DNA from: Firmicutes bacterium HGW-Firmicutes-21
GTDB taxonomy: Bacteria > Bacillota > Clostridia > Oscillospirales > CAG-382
Assembly: GCA_002841455.1 (NCBI GenBank)
Contig: PGZT01000015.1
Coordinates: 1-36,374, forward strand
Length of the DNA: 36,374 bases
Reading direction: 5' to 3'
Under the pieces are notes generated by a model. The model searched no databases. It saw nothing but the letters and a program-made list of their open reading frames with translations, and was not told the origin of the DNA. Every line of letters begins with the position of its first letter. Position 1 is the first letter of the stretch. Below are positions 17,214 through 36,266 of the stretch, piece after piece. Made by a program: the position numbers and the translations under genes.

Positions 17214-17340
17214 ATGGGAGAAATACCCGCAAACGACAATGACGCACCGAAAAGAAAATATGGAAGCATATTGTCTTGTCCGATTGCTTGGTATTAATAA
17301 TTTGTCCAACCCCGCGCCTTGCCGGAGAAACGGAAATAAT
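17214..17340 (+). promoter_or_regulatory. Structured leader of the HAD gene with GCCGGAGAAACGG motif
   Basis: The leader contains a small hairpin (AATATG-GAAG-CATATT, about 17255-17271) and, next to the start codon, GCCGGAGAAACGG (17321-17333), nearly the same as the start-proximal motif in the rpoZ and PASTA-kinase leaders. The matching upstream AGCCATT hairpin is not found, so membership in that leader family is uncertain. A 27-codon ORF (17214-17297) also lies here. Confidence 0.35.
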
Positions 17341-17934: not shown

Positions 17935-17966
17935 AGAGTGTTCCTGTGCGGGACGCTCTTTTTTTA
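17935..17966 (+). terminator. Intrinsic terminator after the HAD gene
   Basis: AGAGTGTTCC-TGTGC-GGGACGCTCT with two G-U pairs, followed by seven T's. The T-run reaches the stop codon of the convergent glycosyltransferase gene. Confidence 0.9.
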
Positions 17967-19226
17967 CTTCTCCTGCATTTGCTCAATGGAGGTGCATACG
18001 GTATGCTCTATCGGAGACCATTCGACCTTTTTAAAAATCGCGGTTATCGAGATAGGTATATAGGTCATAATAAAGAACGGGAAGCTGAACATATAAATTA
18101 TCTTCCTTGCCGTAGAGGTGCCTATGCTTCTCCATTCTGTAATAGTTGCGATAAAACCGATAAAGAACAGCATTAAATAACCGAGTGCAAGGAACTGCCC
18201 CATGGATACAAAACCGTGAGTTAACATATTTGTGGACGAATTTGTATATATCAAGCCGTAGATTATTTTGGTAAGGTTAAGCAGTATGCTGAGGACCGTA
18301 AGGAAAATTGCGGGGAAAATTGTCATGAGCATATCATAACAGGAAAAGGATAATCGACCGAACAAATTCTTTGCAAGAGGCACGCCGTATTTACCCAGCA
18401 CCTGGTAAAAGCCCTTTGACCAACGGAGCCTTTGCTTCCAGGATTGACCAAAGGTAATCGGTTGCTCGTCAAAAACGCAGGCATCGGCACAATAGCCGAT
18501 TTTGCCGCCCTTTACTATAGTATCGACGGTAAACTCAATGTCCTCGGTAAGCAGGTGAAAGGGCCAGCCGCCGTTATCGATAACAGTTTGCTTTTTAAGG
18601 CAAAAGCCGGTTCCGGATATGGCACAGCTTGTGTTAAGCCGCATACGGGCGTTATTTAAATATTTCGATTCACGCAGGAACCATAACGAATAACCGGCGG
18701 AAACCCAGTTTGTTCCGTAGTTTTTGGAGTTGCGATAGCAGGTGAACGCCTTATAATCGAGATTAAAGGTCTTGTTCATCTCATGTACAAAGTTCTTATC
18801 GACAAGGTTATCCGCATCGAAAATGATATACCCCTCGCAATCGTCGCCGTTCTTCAGTAAATCCTTAAAAACATAATCTAACGCATAACCCTTGCCGATT
18901 TGCTTATCGTTAAACCGCTCGTAAACAACAGCACCCTTTTCCCTGCAAAGAGCTGCGGTGTCATCGGTGCAGTTATCCGCAACCACAAAAATTTTGATTA
19001 GCTCCTTAGAGTATGTTTGGTTGTTTATTGAATCGATAAGATGACCGATAACGGATTGCTCGTTTCTTGCGGCGATTATAATGCCGAACTTGTGCAGCTT
19101 AAAGTTTTCTACAGTACGCACCTTATCGTTCGAAAACAACATATAGAATGTATAGAAAAATTGATACAGATAGCATATAGCAAAAATAACAGCTATACTG
19201 TTTTCAATCGGAATTATTATTTCCAT
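17964..19226 (-). CDS. Membrane glycosyltransferase, family GT2 (processive/BcsA-like type)
   Basis: A 420-residue protein started at the ATG at 19226 (MEIIIP); the longer ORF reads back through the leader RNA. It has an N-terminal transmembrane helix, a cytosolic GT-A domain (IIIAARNEQSVIGHLIDSI, IIFDADN for the DxD, LTEDIEFT for the catalytic Asp) and the acceptor motif QRLRWSKGF, then about four transmembrane helices at the C-terminus. This combination is typical of enzymes that add sugars at the membrane, such as polysaccharide synthases or glycolipid glycosyltransferases. The acceptor is unknown. It stands alone between a promoter with a structured leader and the convergent HAD gene. Confidence 0.88.
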   Translation of the reverse strand: MEIIIPIENSIAVIFAICYLYQFFYTFYMLFSNDKVRTVENFKLHKFGIIIAARNEQSVIGHLIDSINNQTYSKELIKIFVVADNCTDDTAALCREKGAVVYERFNDKQIGKGYALDYVFKDLLKNGDDCEGYIIFDADNLVDKNFVHEMNKTFNLDYKAFTCYRNSKNYGTNWVSAGYSLWFLRESKYLNNARMRLNTSCAISGTGFCLKKQTVIDNGGWPFHLLTEDIEFTVDTIVKGGKIGYCADACVFDEQPITFGQSWKQRLRWSKGFYQVLGKYGVPLAKNLFGRLSFSCYDMLMTIFPAIFLTVLSILLNLTKIIYGLIYTNSSTNMLTHGFVSMGQFLALGYLMLFFIGFIATITEWRSIGTSTARKIIYMFSFPFFIMTYIPISITAIFKKVEWSPIEHTVCTSIEQMQEK

Positions 19227-19321
19227 TACCAATCCGTTTCCCCGACAGTAAAAGACGCATATCAAATAATATAAGCCATTTTGCTGTCGGTGCAATGGCT
19301 TAAGGTATTATTTTAAAATAC
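19224..19321 (-). promoter_or_regulatory. Structured leader with loop-to-ribosome-site pairing, GT2 copy
   Basis: Minus strand, in order: hairpin GTATT...AATAC (19305-19321); hairpin TAAGCCATT / AATGGCTTA (arms 19294-19302 and 19272-19280) whose 13-base loop holds CCGACAG; an AT-rich linker; CTGTCGG (19242-19248), fully complementary to that loop; then GGAAACGG and the ATG 15 bases after the paired strand. It is the same order as in the rpoZ and kinase leaders but with a different, compensating loop sequence. Confidence 0.6.
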
Positions 19322-23438: not shown

Positions 23439-23493
23439 AATAAAAGGTTTACTTCATAAACTTTTTATTATGGAATGCAGTTTATAACTGCAT
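23439..23493 (+). terminator. Two hairpins between gmk and the rpoZ leader (partial terminator?)
   Basis: First hairpin: AATAAAAGGTTTA-CTTCA-TAAACTTTTTATT (23439-23469), 13 bp with one G-U. Second: ATGCAGTT-TAT-AACTGCAT (23475-23493), followed by TTTTAC. Both are weak for classical terminators because the T-runs are short; they could attenuate or act as 3'-end processing sites before rpoZ. Confidence 0.4.
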
Positions 23494-23496
23494 TTT

Positions 23497-23592
23497 ACAA
23501 GGTGCCAGCAGACACCGCAGCCATTTGTCCGGCGACAAATGGTCGTGCGTATTTATTATATTTTTATCGCCGGAGAAATGGGAATTATAATG
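23497..23592 (+). promoter_or_regulatory. Structured leader with loop-to-ribosome-site pairing, rpoZ copy
   Basis: In order: ACAAGGTG...CACC (small hairpin); GC; AGCCATTTGTCCGGCGACAAATGG, whose stem CATTTG/CAAATG closes the loop TCCGGCGA (23528-23535); an AT-rich linker with TTATATTTT; TCGCCGGA (23567-23574), complementary to all eight loop bases; then GAAATGGGA and the ATG at 23590. A competing long stem is also possible: CCATTTGTCCGGCGA (23521-23535) against TCGCCGGAGAAATGG (23567-23581), 14 of 15 paired. Both structures would involve GGAG. Confidence 0.65.
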
Positions 23593-23847
23593 CTTTATCC
23601 AGCATTGGAAAATCTTACGACAGACAGTGTAAACCGTTATAAACTGGTTATTGCTACCGCAAAATGCGCACGCCATGTAACACAAAAGGCAAACGAAGCC
23701 AAGGAAGTTACCGATTCACGCAAGGATCATGACCGTTTCGGTAAGGATTTAAAAATCGAAGTTACCGCTGATGCCGCAAATGATAAAGCGGTTTCTGTTG
23801 CCATCGGACGAATAGCGAACGGTGAGTACAAAATTATAAAAGATTAA
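23590..23847 (+). CDS. rpoZ: DNA-directed RNA polymerase omega subunit
   Basis: An 85-residue protein started at 23590 (MLYPALENLTTDSVNRYKLVIATAKCARHVTQKA), the normal RpoZ opening. An in-frame ATG 12 bases earlier is only two bases from GGAG, too close to be used in the usual way. Omega helps assemble and stabilise RNA polymerase around beta'. The segment RYKLVIATAKCARHV is the conserved helix region. The upstream structured leader is shared with two other genes here, so expression may be controlled at translation. Confidence 0.93.
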   Translation: MLYPALENLTTDSVNRYKLVIATAKCARHVTQKANEAKEVTDSRKDHDRFGKDLKIEVTADAANDKAVSVAIGRIANGEYKIIKD

Positions 23848-31373: not shown

Positions 31374-32392
31374 TAGATATTTTGAGCCTTTACCCACACG
31401 AAATTGAGGATTTTATTGTTTCGCTCGGCGAGAAGAGCTTCCGTGCTTCGCAGCTATTCGCCTGGCTATACAAGGGTTCTGACAGCTTTTCCGGAATGAC
31501 CAACCTGCCGAGGAGCCTTATATCAAGGTTAGAAGAGCAAGCTGTTATTAAAAATATCGTTATCGAACAAAAATTAGTCTCGGTCATAGACGGAACCGTC
31601 AAGTATTTGTTCGCACTGGATGACGGCGAAAAAATAGAGAGCGTTTTTATGCGATACAAGCACGGAAACACCATCTGCCTGTCAACACAAGCGGGTTGCA
31701 GGATGGGCTGCTCGTTTTGCGCATCCGCATTGAACGGATTAAAGCGCAACCTGCTCCCGAGCGAGATGCTGCTGCAAATAATTATGGCGGAACGGGATTT
31801 GGGTGAGAAAATATCCAATATAGTTCTGATGGGTATAGGCGAGCCTCTCGATAACTATGATAATGTGATTCGTTTTCTGCGGTTGGTTAACAACAAGGAC
31901 GGACTTAATATAGGAATGAGACATATCTCGTTATCCACATGCGGGCTTGTCGATAAAATCGACCGTTTATCAGAGGAGAACCTGCCTCTTACACTATCGG
32001 TCTCGCTCCATGCGACAGACGACATAAAACGAAGAGCGTTAATGCCGGTTGCCAACCGTTGGTCGATTGATAAGCTGCTCGCCTCCTGCGAGCGTTATAT
32101 AAAAAAGACATCCCGTCGGATATCCTTTGAATATGCGTTAATAGCGGGTGTAAACGATAGTGTTGAGGACGCCAATAAGCTGGGACGGATGCTTGCCGGT
32201 ATGCTGTGTCACCTTAATCTTATCCCGATTAACCCAATTTTGGAGAAAAATCATAAAAAAAGCGAAAAAAGAGCCATAGAGGTATTTACACGGACCATAG
32301 AAACATATAAAATAAGCGTAACGGTACGCCGTAGGCTTGGAAGCGATATAAATGCTTCCTGCGGTCAGCTCAGAGCCGGTCACAGCAATTAA
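31370..32392 (+). CDS. rlmN: Dual-specificity 23S rRNA A2503/tRNA methyltransferase RlmN
   Basis: A 340-residue radical-SAM enzyme that makes 2-methyladenosine at A2503 of 23S rRNA. The cluster motif CRMGCSFCAS is present. The methyl-carrying Cys is in the C-terminal DINASCGQLRAGH, and the other conserved part is LMGIGEPLDNYDNV. Full family length. The ATGA overlap with the M3 peptidase points to coupled translation. The PP2C gene follows. Confidence 0.97.
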   Translation: MIDILSLYPHEIEDFIVSLGEKSFRASQLFAWLYKGSDSFSGMTNLPRSLISRLEEQAVIKNIVIEQKLVSVIDGTVKYLFALDDGEKIESVFMRYKHGNTICLSTQAGCRMGCSFCASALNGLKRNLLPSEMLLQIIMAERDLGEKISNIVLMGIGEPLDNYDNVIRFLRLVNNKDGLNIGMRHISLSTCGLVDKIDRLSEENLPLTLSVSLHATDDIKRRALMPVANRWSIDKLLASCERYIKKTSRRISFEYALIAGVNDSVEDANKLGRMLAGMLCHLNLIPINPILEKNHKKSEKRAIEVFTRTIETYKISVTVRRRLGSDINASCGQLRAGHSN

Positions 32393-32417
32393 TTTGACTT
32401 GCAAGGGGAGTGGATAC

Positions 32418-33170
32418 TTGAAATACAGCGGAAAAACCGATATCGGACTTAAGAGGAAAAATAATCAGGACAGCTTCACGGTAATTTCGCGAGGCGGCTT
32501 TGTAAGTGCGGTCGTATGTGACGGTATGGGCGGAGCAAAGGGCGGGAATGTAGCCAGCAGTCTTGCTGTCAAGGTTTACACCCAGTGCATTAAAACGGAA
32601 ATAGCGAAGGCGGACCCGGACACAATCCCGGCGGCGGAGGCGGAGCGGATTTTAAAAAGTGCCGTAAAGAAAGCAAATTCGGTTGTTTTTGAAGCCGCAA
32701 ACTACGACATCGAGCTTGAGGGAATGGGTACAACATTGGTTTCGGTGTTGATATGCGGCGGCAGAGTTTTTGTCGCAAATGTAGGAGACAGCCGATTATA
32801 TACTTATAAGGACGGTTGCGTAAAACAAATAACCAACGACCATTCCTTTGTACAATATCTGCTTGATAAGGGCAGTATAACTAAAGAGGATGCAAAAAAT
32901 CATCCTAACAGGAACATAATTCTTCGTGCCCTGGGAGTCAATGAGAGTGTGGAACCCGAGCTGTTTAATTTTAACGACGAGGATTACGATATTTTACTTT
33001 TATGCAGCGACGGGCTTACAACGCATCTTTCCGATGAGGAGATTTCCGTGGTTATAGAGGGAGTACAAGGTAAGAAGACATCCTTGAAGAAGAAGGCGGA
33101 TACACTTATAGAACAGGCTAACGAAAAGGGCGGAGTCGATAATATCACCGCCGTCCTTTTAGAAAAGTGA
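32418..33170 (+). CDS. prpC: PP2C-type Ser/Thr phosphatase (Stp/PrpC)
   Basis: A 250-residue phosphatase. I start it at the TTG at 32418 (LKYSGKTDIGLKRKNNQDSF), with AGGGGAG eight bases upstream; the ORF-track start overlaps rlmN. Metal-binding and family motifs: DIG..R..NQDS, VVCDGMGGAKGG, GTTLVSVLICGGRVFVANVGDSRLY, LLCSDGLTTHL and GGVDNITAVLL. It removes phosphate from targets of the PASTA kinase encoded next, possibly including IreB. The pair is adjacent as in most Firmicutes. Confidence 0.94.
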   Translation: MKYSGKTDIGLKRKNNQDSFTVISRGGFVSAVVCDGMGGAKGGNVASSLAVKVYTQCIKTEIAKADPDTIPAAEAERILKSAVKKANSVVFEAANYDIELEGMGTTLVSVLICGGRVFVANVGDSRLYTYKDGCVKQITNDHSFVQYLLDKGSITKEDAKNHPNRNIILRALGVNESVEPELFNFNDEDYDILLLCSDGLTTHLSDEEISVVIEGVQGKKTSLKKKADTLIEQANEKGGVDNITAVLLEK

Positions 33171-33177
33171 TTAGATT

Positions 33178-33274
33178 ACAAGGTTTTTTAGAGACCGCAG
33201 CCATTTATCCGGCGTAAATGAGCTGAGAAAATTATATTTTGTTTTATGTTGCCGGAGAAATGGGACTTTGTATG
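33178..33274 (+). promoter_or_regulatory. Structured leader with loop-to-ribosome-site pairing, PASTA-kinase copy
   Basis: ACAAGGT...ACC; GC; AGCCATTTA-TCCGGCG-TAAATG with an added CAGC/GCTG stem (33198-33201 with 33222-33225, one bulged A); linker with ATTATATTTT; TGCCGGA (33250-33256), complementary to the loop TCCGGCG (33208-33214) with one G-U; then GAAATGGGA and ATG 16 bases after the CGG. The hairpin stem differs from the rpoZ copy (TTA/TAA versus TTG/CAA) but still pairs. Confidence 0.65.
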
Positions 33275-35386
33275 TATAAGTATGAAAATTTTATAGGTAA
33301 GGTGCTTGACGGCAGATACAAGATACTTGAGCTTGTCGGTCTCGGCGGAATGGCGTTTGTGCTTAAAGCTGAGGACCTTGTCATGAACCGTATTGTTGCC
33401 ATTAAAATTTTAAACGACGAATATAACGGCAACGAGCAGGCGGAGGCACGCTTCATAAACGAGTCCAAGGCGGTCGCTATGCTGTCGAATAAAAATATAG
33501 TTAGCATTTACGATGTCGCCATATACCCGGATATGAAGTATATTGTTATGGAGTTCCTCGACGGGATAACCCTTCGGGAGTATCTGGACAATAAGGGTGC
33601 GCTTCCCTGGAAGGAAGCCTGCGTTTATATTCTTCAGATTCTTCGTGCGCTTGAGCATGCGCACAGCAAGGGAGTTATTCACAGGGATATTAAGCCACAG
33701 AATGTAATATTACAAAAGAACGGCGAGATTAAGGTTACCGATTTCGGTATTGCAAAGCTGCCGAACACACCCTCACTTACCCTCACGGAAAAGGCGATCG
33801 GAACTGTTTATTATATCAGTCCGGAGCAGGCAAGCGGCAGAGAGACCGATTATTTCTCTGACATTTATTCTGTCGGAATTATGCTTTACGAGGCTGTAAC
33901 AGGCAGCTTGCCCTTTATGGCGGACAGCCCTCTTTCCATAGCTATGATGCAGGTGGGTCAGTCTCCGCAGCATCCTAAGGAGCTGGTCGACACGCTTCCC
34001 GAGGGAGTATGCCAGATTATTTTAAAAGCGATGGAAAAGGAGACCGATTCCCGTTTCGCTTCAGCTCATTCAATGAGCAAGGCGATTGAGTGGGTGCTTA
34101 GAAACCCCGATGTGGTGTTTTTACTTGGTGCCGGTACAGACGGAGAAGCAAAAAACAACCCCGCCGCCGTTTCGATAGATATGATTGACACGGGTGAAAT
34201 TAACGATTATGCGGAGAGTGAAATAGCCGATGTTGTAAGCAACGGCAAGAAGAAGAAATCTAACAAGAAAAACAAAGATAAACAGGATAACACAAGTAAA
34301 CCTAACCGCACCCTTTTTCCGATAATAACGGCGGTTGCGCTTTCCTTTATTATCGTAACTGTTATTATGGGTTCGATTTTAGTTGTCAATTTTATCGGTG
34401 GTATTATAAACCCGGCAAATACAGGTGACGAGGGAGCTGTTTTCCCGAATATTGTCGGAGAGTTTTGGAACAGCCAGTTTGAATCCAATCTTGCAAACGG
34501 CTCCTATGGGCAGAAGTTCAAGGTGGATAAGGTTGTTCTCGCAGAGAACGATAATTTTAAAGCGGGACAGATAATCTCACAATATCCCGAACCCGGACAG
34601 GAGAAAAAAGAGAAGGATAACAGCGGATTTTATCGTTTTGAATTTATTACCGTCTGCAGTAACCTCACGGATGTTGTTATTCCGAATGTTTCGTATTACA
34701 CGGCAACACAAGCGAGGATTATTCTGCAAAGCAAGGATTACCAATTAAAGGTTGATACGGTAAAAGAGAGCAATTATGGTTATTACGACGGTCAGGTTAT
34801 CAGAACGGAGCCGCCAATCGGAAGCATAGCCACGCCCGGTGAAACGGTTACTCTTTTTATCTGCGAACGCACTCCGTCCGCCGATACGGATTTTATGCCC
34901 GACCTTGTGGGTCTTACAAAAAAGCAAGCGGAAAATCTTATAAAGTATACGCTCTACAATTATGAGTTTGTGATGGAGCAGAGTATAAACGGAACAAACA
35001 GGGTTGTTTCCCAGAGCATTTCACCCGGTGAGAAAAACCCCAGCTCGACATTGGTTACCATAACCGTTTCGATTAAGCTGGATGGAATAGAGATGCCAAA
35101 CCTCATAGGAATGACCTACTCCGAGGCAATACAAGGGATTTTGGATATAGGTATAAAAGTCGGCGATTACAGCATGTTTTATGTTCTTTACGGCGACACC
35201 ACACCGAGGATGGAGACCGTTGGGCTTAATTATTATGACGCAGTATATGTTTTGCAATGGCTCGGTTATAAAAACGCGCCCGACAGCATTGATGCGTATG
35301 TTGTTTACCAGAGTATTCCGGAGGGAACGATTGTTAACAGAAACGACGAGATTTCATTGATTTACGGTGTGGATATTGATGAGTGA
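33272..35386 (+). CDS. prkC: PASTA-domain Ser/Thr protein kinase (PrkC/IreK/Stk type)
   Basis: A 704-residue membrane kinase started at the ATG at 33272 (MYKYENFIGKVLDGRYKIL). An in-frame ATG 12 bases before, right after GGAGAA, is less likely. The kinase domain (about 16-280) has LGGMAFVLKA, catalytic Lys 45 (VAIKIL), HRDIKPQN with D139 and the DFG motif with D157. A basic Lys/Asn linker leads to one transmembrane helix (about 350-380), followed by three to four extracellular PASTA repeats (NIVGEFWNSQFE, NVSYYTATQARIIL, DLVGLTKKQAENLI, NLIGMTYSEAIQGI) that sense cell-wall fragments. It controls cell wall, germination and metabolism in relatives. IreB is a likely target. Confidence 0.95.
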   Translation: MYKYENFIGKVLDGRYKILELVGLGGMAFVLKAEDLVMNRIVAIKILNDEYNGNEQAEARFINESKAVAMLSNKNIVSIYDVAIYPDMKYIVMEFLDGITLREYLDNKGALPWKEACVYILQILRALEHAHSKGVIHRDIKPQNVILQKNGEIKVTDFGIAKLPNTPSLTLTEKAIGTVYYISPEQASGRETDYFSDIYSVGIMLYEAVTGSLPFMADSPLSIAMMQVGQSPQHPKELVDTLPEGVCQIILKAMEKETDSRFASAHSMSKAIEWVLRNPDVVFLLGAGTDGEAKNNPAAVSIDMIDTGEINDYAESEIADVVSNGKKKKSNKKNKDKQDNTSKPNRTLFPIITAVALSFIIVTVIMGSILVVNFIGGIINPANTGDEGAVFPNIVGEFWNSQFESNLANGSYGQKFKVDKVVLAENDNFKAGQIISQYPEPGQEKKEKDNSGFYRFEFITVCSNLTDVVIPNVSYYTATQARIILQSKDYQLKVDTVKESNYGYYDGQVIRTEPPIGSIATPGETVTLFICERTPSADTDFMPDLVGLTKKQAENLIKYTLYNYEFVMEQSINGTNRVVSQSISPGEKNPSSTLVTITVSIKLDGIEMPNLIGMTYSEAIQGILDIGIKVGDYSMFYVLYGDTTPRMETVGLNYYDAVYVLQWLGYKNAPDSIDAYVVYQSIPEGTIVNRNDEISLIYGVDIDE

Positions 35387-36266
35387 TGATTCTAAAACCG
35401 GAAAAATTTTAAAGGGGCAGAACGGTTTATATACTGTGGAAGCCACAGACGGTTTATTTCAATGCCATGCGTCGAGTAAAATCCGGAAAACGGCTGATAT
35501 AAAGCTCTCGGCGGGCGATAATGTGTTTTTTACCGATAACGGAGACGGCAGCGGTTTTATATCCGAGGTGCGGGAACGCAAAAACGCCTTTATACGCCCC
35601 GCTGTGGCAAATATAGATATGCTCGCGATAATAGTATCGGCGGACGAGCCGAAGCCTGTTCCGTATACAATCGATAAGCTGAGCGTTATTGCGGTAAACG
35701 CGGGCGTTGATGTATATATAATAATCACGAAATCAGATATAGCTCAGCCTGAGGTTTTGCTCGATATATATCGAAAAACACCGTTTTTGCTCTCGGTAAC
35801 GAATATTTTGGACAAGGACTGCGTTAATGAGGTCAGGGAAAGGCTGAAGGGTAGGATTACCGTATTAACCGGTGCATCCGGTGTAGGGAAGTCGAGCTTG
35901 ATTAATCTATTGTATCCGGAGCTTGATACCGAGGTGGGCAACCTGTCGGAAAAGATAAAAAGAGGACGGAACACAACAAGGGTTACCGAGCTGTTCTCAC
36001 TCGGAATGCAGACATATATTGCGGATACCCCCGGATTCGGTATGCTGGATTTTGACCGTTGCAGTGAGGTTGAGTTAAAAGAGATAGTTATCTGCTTCCC
36101 CGACATTGTTCCTTTTACGGAGGAATGCAGATATAAAAAATGCACTCATACCAAGGAAGAGGGCTGTGCCGTTATACAAGCGGTAAAAAACGGTTTGATT
36201 GCGGAATCCCGACACGAGAGCTACATACGGCTCTATGACGAAACCAAAAAGATACCACAGTATTGA
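35379..36266 (+). CDS. rsgA: Ribosome small-subunit-dependent GTPase RsgA
   Basis: A 295-residue GTPase started at the ATG at 35379, eight bases inside the kinase gene. It has an N-terminal OB fold (about 5-70), a circularly permuted GTPase domain with G4 TKSD before G1 GASGVGKSSLIN and G3 DTPGF, and a C-terminal zinc region (CRYKKCTHTKEEGC). It helps late 30S ribosome maturation. The prpC-prkC-rsgA order is the Firmicutes standard. Confidence 0.96.
   Translation: MSDDSKTGKILKGQNGLYTVEATDGLFQCHASSKIRKTADIKLSAGDNVFFTDNGDGSGFISEVRERKNAFIRPAVANIDMLAIIVSADEPKPVPYTIDKLSVIAVNAGVDVYIIITKSDIAQPEVLLDIYRKTPFLLSVTNILDKDCVNEVRERLKGRITVLTGASGVGKSSLINLLYPELDTEVGNLSEKIKRGRNTTRVTELFSLGMQTYIADTPGFGMLDFDRCSEVELKEIVICFPDIVPFTEECRYKKCTHTKEEGCAVIQAVKNGLIAESRHESYIRLYDETKKIPQY

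Follow-up and report, generated by a model that had tools for sequence, protein, structure and literature searches.

The window analysed here, a stretch of 36,374 nucleotides (contig PGZT01000015.1) from Firmicutes bacterium HGW-Firmicutes-21, carries three unrelated genes whose leaders look alike, which raises the question of whether these leaders belong to one RNA family and what a single structured element might do in front of such different genes. The original prediction described in each leader a hairpin loop complementary to a downstream strand, the motif GRGAAAYGG and an ATG 15-16 nt past the CGG, and we recovered all of these features before the three genes. The rpoZ leader has a hairpin at 23521..23542 (plus strand; seen in the sequence, scored at 75.4 bits by cmsearch with the model R3, and backed by covariation), composed of a stem P1 (CCATTTG 23521-23527 / CAAATGG 23536-23542), a loop L1 (T 23528) and the 5' strand of a second stem S2 (CCGGCGA 23529-23535). 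The S2 3' strand, TCGCCGG (23567..23573), pairs with 23529-23535 to give a pseudoknot, as indicated by sequence and covariation, and is followed by the conserved RBS block AGAAATGG (23574..23581), whose GG lies 8 nt before the ATG (23590) of rpoZ (RNA polymerase omega, 85 aa; 23590..23847, plus strand; weak TIGR00690 and PF01192 matches just under the cut-offs).

The second leader, also on the plus strand, has its hairpin at 33202..33220 (56.4 bits by cmsearch), with P1 CATTTA 33202-33207 / TAAATG 33215-33220 enclosing the S2 5' strand CCGGCG (33209-33214); the S2 3' strand TTGCCGG (33249-33255) precedes the same RBS block AGAAATGG (33256-33263) and the ATG (33272) of a 704-aa Stk1/PrkC-type PASTA Ser/Thr kinase (33272..35386; NCBIfam NF033483, 463 bits for a cut-off of 450). 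This leader is located inside an operon, between the stop of a PP2C gene (33170) and the kinase start, where it fills the intergenic space 3' of the PP2C gene; in the gene order PP2C phosphatase - PASTA kinase - RsgA GTPase (window 32352-36266), the kinase alone has a pseudoknot leader. The third leader lies on the minus strand, with a hairpin at 19272..19302 (39.1 bits by cmsearch) whose P1 contains a bulge and whose outer P1 pairs TAAGCCATT (19302-19294) with AATGGCTTA (19280-19272). Its S2 5' strand CCGACAG (19290-19284) has a co-varied partner, CTGTCGG (19248-19242), which is followed by the RBS block GGAAACGG (19241-19234) and the ATG (19226) of a 420-aa GT2-family glycosyltransferase (17964..19226, minus strand; Pfam PF13641, 79.5 bits). 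Elsewhere in the window, GCCGGAGAAACGG is found at 17321-17333, 7 nt 5' of the ATG (17341) of a HAD-family hydrolase gene and without a recognisable hairpin; this site is either a degenerate copy or a chance occurrence.

As originally proposed, the three leaders form one RNA family, which is far larger than one window: more than 100 copies were gathered from the window's genome and more than 20 other Clostridia genomes. Its members have the properties of an H-type pseudoknot (pairing of a hairpin loop with a downstream strand, a short L1 and an L2 close to zero), with a P1 of about 5-10 bp, an L1 of 1 nt, an S2 of 7 bp made of the hairpin loop and the downstream strand (mostly CCGGCGA/TCGCCGG), no L2, and a variable AU-rich linker L3 of about 15-30 nt (about 31% G+C). 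The commonest geometry, L1=1 and L2=0, occurs in 46 leaders with a P1 of at least 4 bp, and the second commonest in 14; an L1 of 1 nt with an L2 of zero is classic H-type stereochemistry, and P1 and S2 would be expected to stack coaxially. AGAAAYGGR stands directly 3' of the pseudoknot, before the start codon, which lies mostly 7-9 nt past the GG (an ATG in 75 of the 103 leaders), about the same distance as that between the Shine-Dalgarno (SD) core and the start of ordinary genes in the window's genome. The pseudoknot takes in only the first GG of GGRG and leaves AAAYGGR, in the SD position, free.

We consider the pseudoknot real: its paired bases change together. The covariation seen at first within one genome is supported by two larger alignments. 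The first, A3 (47 rows), was built with the model R1, which, like R2, is effectively a sequence model with a mis-specified P1; P1 and S2 pairs are not encoded in R1, so that A3 was not fitted to either stem. In A3, 92.2% of S2 cells are paired, and both-side changes occur at 6 of the 8 S2 pairs and, as compensatory changes, at all 9 P1 pairs; against controls that ignore phylogeny, the covariation score is 0.351, compared with 0.193 +/- 0.011 when shuffled (0 of 500 shuffles reach 0.351) and at most 0.137 when slid. The second alignment, A4 (110 rows), was built with R3, in which P1 is correctly encoded and S2 is not, and S2 is paired at 95.6%; its middle pair is G-C in 95 rows and A-U in 12, with zero non-pairs, and the adjacent middle pair is G-C in 79, A-U in 23, G-U in 2 and C-G in 1, with two non-pairs. 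When 2098 column pairs were ranked by an APC-corrected G statistic, the top 12 were all P1 or S2 pairs, the S2 pairs 22-119 and 21-120 coming first and fourth and P1 pairs, including three outer ones, taking the other places; ranks 1-11 lie above the highest value that 20 column shuffles produced (26.3), a control that likewise ignores phylogeny, and rank 12 (25.5) is just under it.

The P1 5' arm is also complementary, in register, to the RBS block beyond what shuffles give (z 5.1 in a set found without using P1; z 10.8 with the own genome left out), and no covariation was detected between the variable positions of this arm and those of the block (Fisher p 0.32 and 1.0). We therefore do not claim a switch by pairing of the P1 5' arm with the RBS block: the arms resemble the block without covarying with it, so that an alternative helix giving clean ON/OFF behaviour remains conjecture. 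The copy before deoD (L062:16815-16888) contains a perfect 15-bp inverted repeat, CCATTTCTCCGGCGA/TCGCCGGAGAAATGG, through which a nested helix could form in place of the pseudoknot and hide the RBS block.

The window's own genome, 1.55 Mb in size, has about 30 copies, and in one genome the leader precedes about 2% of genes. In the window's genome the exact 13-mer GCCGGRGAAAYGG occurs 17 times, against 0 for the reversed pattern. In stretches of this genome totalling 1.28 Mb, window included, GRGAAAYGG combined with a start codon and an upstream hairpin with a strand-pairing loop was found 18 times, and the reversed motif only twice. At E <= 0.001, an early covariance model had 30 matches in the window's genome; the two congeneric genomes yielded 13 and 17 and the rest of the window's family few, and a few of these matches are palindromic copies read on the opposite strand. 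What the original prediction counted in the common layout as a small hairpin ending ACC is not a family feature; it is part of an extended 5' cassette outside the family core, found in about 8 copies in this genome only, which share up to about 130 nt upstream. Among the window leaders, the cassette is present before rpoZ (23464..23520, plus strand, upstream of the pseudoknot; hairpins TGCAGTT..AACTGCA and GGTG..CACC), partial before the kinase gene (prkC) and absent before the GT2 gene. Cassette hairpins, some with compensating changes, take the forms GTTTAC..GTAAAC, TGCAGTT..AACTGCA and GGTGTC..GACACC; further cassette loci are L254, L068, L070, L090, L114 and L098, and two tandem copies lie 167 bp apart on contig C6, 5' of an EcfT-like gene.

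Outside the window's genome, a pattern search over 85,462 species returned 80 stretches. Those in Clostridia (Sporobacter, Papillibacter, Acetanaerobacterium, digester and groundwater MAGs) mostly have the hairpin and a start codon; matches in other phyla have neither and were discarded as chance. In the covariance-model search of related genomes that the original prediction had suggested, 27 of the 297 genomes sampled from the order (22 of 146 genera) gave an R3 match at E <= 1e-4. The distribution is patchy, several genomes having a single match and the leader-rich ones of this sample 7-16 or more copies; some Clostridia reach about 10-30 leaders per genome. Phage carriage was rejected, since two loop variants had 0 exact matches in viral contigs.

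Leaders at orthologous genes diverge while keeping their pairing, and such copies recur across genera (fusA x4, topA x3, spoVM x3), the core having spread without the extended cassette. In topA leaders, P1 differs entirely between three congeneric genomes (TGCAG/CTGCA, AGGTC/GACCT and TTTTTA/TAAAAA) and yet is paired in each, with S2 and AGAAACGG kept; topA in other members of the window's family has plain AAGGAG-type sites without a pseudoknot. The fusA leaders of four genomes fall into two pairs, the first with the loop/strand CCGGCGA/TCGCCGG and the second with CAACGA/TCGTTG, where one copy has a final mismatch, and both-side differences are also found between the leader pairs of purA, spoVM, yidC, rnj, the L7Ae-like gene and lon.

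The window and 20 related loci gave 0 matches to Rfam 15 at the gathering cut-off, and only chance-like matches (e.g. eukaryotic miRNA models) at a permissive E-value; in a limited open-access search, no match was found in the structured-RNA discovery literature. By these sources, therefore, both the family and its occurrence in front of many unrelated genes appear new. With matches beyond near-identical strains, in many Clostridia, covariation present and no Rfam family, the original prediction of a new-looking family stands, and compensatory changes together with a consistent place before the start in several lineages are what a structured cis-regulatory leader family would display. Its kind is known, as pseudoknots at ribosome-binding sites have precedents (preQ1, S15, tisB). 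In the E. coli rpsO/S15 and alpha operon/S4 leaders, a pseudoknot before the start codon acts at 30S loading, which resembles what we propose here; however, autogenous leaders of this sort belong to one r-protein gene or operon, whereas the present family precedes dozens of unrelated genes, few of them for r-proteins (rpmJ, rplJ, L7Ae-like). The tisB 5' UTR contains a standby-site pseudoknot required for translation initiation (PMC7708055), but it concerns a single toxin mRNA and lies far upstream of the RBS, whereas our multi-gene leaders adjoin it. The STAXI motif is likewise a pseudoknot-based orphan RNA (PMC2864571); it forms tandem units near genes for DNA-binding proteins, and neither the window nor the sampled loci have a gathering-score match to any Rfam 15 family.

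The genes behind the leaders are unrelated and mostly housekeeping, with no pathway or function in common. They include fusA, topA, rpmJ, rplJ, rpoB, rpoZ, gyrB, dnaB, ruvB, nusB, rnj, clpX, lon, dnaJ, khpA, an L7Ae-like gene, purA, murI, yidC, pgsA, mreB, tmk, tgt, pgk, dapB, cysK, spoVM, flagellar genes, lipoproteins and others, most names being read from N-terminal sequence and EF-G, the KH protein, L36, L7Ae-like and SpoVM being checked with NCBIfam. Moreover, 38 of 75 leaders begin at most 60 nt from the stop of a co-directional ORF, which leaves little room for a promoter; this closeness and the fixed start-codon spacing make it most likely that the element acts on the mRNA at translation initiation and not as a promoter.

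We therefore read the leader, with a probability that we put clearly above even, as a cis-acting element of translational control. An H-type pseudoknot (P1 and S2 with the long AU-rich L3) would be built directly 5' of a weak conserved RBS block, AGAAAYGGR, whose GG would occupy the normal SD position, 7-9 nt before the start codon. The pseudoknot stops 8 nt short of the 3' end of the RBS block, so that its edge would lie about 15-17 nt upstream of the AUG; from ribosome geometry, we take this to be the point, at the platform, where mRNA comes out of the 30S subunit. Folding and unfolding at this exit would gate or tune 30S loading on the downstream cistron. The original prediction had also favoured translational control by the pseudoknot, and this remains the best reading, argued from fixed start-codon spacing, intra-operonic positions and the lack of a shared gene function; its simple occlusion of the GGAG region is less certain than was claimed, because AAAYGGR in the SD position is outside the pseudoknot. 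Since about 10-30 unrelated genes per genome are preceded by this one element, we take a shared input (a single RNA-binding protein, helicase or chaperone, or else a physical condition, e.g. temperature) to be most likely, not a gene-specific ligand. Going further, and more tentatively, the leaders might constitute a global translational regulon, in which a pseudoknot at the 30S exit of about 10-30 core genes (among them those for EF-G, topoisomerase I, RNA polymerase and ribosomal subunits, ClpX, Lon and SpoVM), read by one dedicated factor or signal, would readjust many protein levels at once with no transcription factor involved. A bacterial RNA leader is normally linked to a single metabolite or protein and to a few functionally related genes, whereas unrelated core genes are concerned here; if regulatory, the family would do in translation what a global regulon does in transcription, and would offer a ready-made, testable expression module of about 75 nt. 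It also has a bearing on the way in which structure at the 30S exit affects initiation. One idea is that AGAAA-Y-GGA works as an extended SD by pairing with the 16S 3' end CCUCCUUUCU, Y being bulged; the 16S 3' end is absent from the window's assembly.

S2 is conserved in sequence beyond the needs of a plain gate, which could reflect contact with a protein or rRNA, and one special case of the translational reading is an autogenous or global operator, on which a single RNA-binding protein (e.g. a cold-shock protein) would bind the pseudoknot and AGAAAYGG and repress or activate all the genes. We hold this to be possible but rather unlikely: one motif before many genes and a conserved single-stranded AGAAAYGG adjoining the near-fixed S2 sequence would suit it, and cold-shock domain proteins occur in exactly 5 of 5 leader-bearing members of the window's family against 0 of 20 others (G000:C69:21990-22187 and relatives, in 5 of the 25 sampled members), as well as in 7 of the 11 order-sample genomes that have two or more copies, compared with 52 of the remaining 286. 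However, outside the window's family the association vanishes (5/22 vs 49/250, p=0.45), AS06rmzACSIP_149 has 7 leaders and no cold-shock domain, and co-occurrence within the family may reflect shared ancestry or habitat; we keep the cold-shock link as a lead and not as a result. CsrA, considered for its tandem GGA sites, does not track the leaders and was rejected, since no csrA was found in either the window's genome or genome G014. The mostly housekeeping genes, the many positions inside operons and the weak SD used instead of AAGGAG would also fit an unregulated structure, namely a constitutive enhancer, insulator or mRNA stabiliser in which the pseudoknot keeps a weak RBS open or blocks nucleases; we judge this unlikely, as so elaborate and conserved a pseudoknot is on just a few percent of genes, which in relatives are expressed from ordinary SDs.

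A metabolite riboswitch with a pseudoknot expression platform is not supported and seems to us improbable. The likeness is to translational preQ1 or SAM-II riboswitches, small H-type pseudoknots whose 3' strand abuts or includes the SD region (cf. PMC9410914), but the present family has no Rfam match, a long variable L3 and no conserved unpaired pocket besides S2 and the RBS block, and its roughly 10-30 copies per genome stand in front of unrelated housekeeping genes with no metabolite or pathway in common. That the element is a dispersed repeat or mobile cassette devoid of function is already disfavoured and very improbable: the shared cassette of this genome, its tandem pair and the inverted repeat before deoD could suggest it, whereas the fixed orientation and start-codon distance, the covarying stems, the recurrence at orthologous genes across genera and the spread of the core without the cassette speak against it. 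Least probable of all, and by our estimate nearly negligible, is an inverted repeat acting in DNA (operator, promoter or invertible element); P1 and S2 are indeed palindromic in DNA, but the loop lengths are of H-type, G-U pairs are tolerated, and it is from the start codon, not from a promoter, that the element keeps a fixed distance, with positions inside operons.

Finally, the leader precedes tiny spoVM genes (26-38 aa) in three genomes (L045:2377-2465, L309:276-370 and L299:1501-1565), so that it can help to find unannotated small genes; another copy, at L111:14343-14406, precedes a 31-aa ORF.
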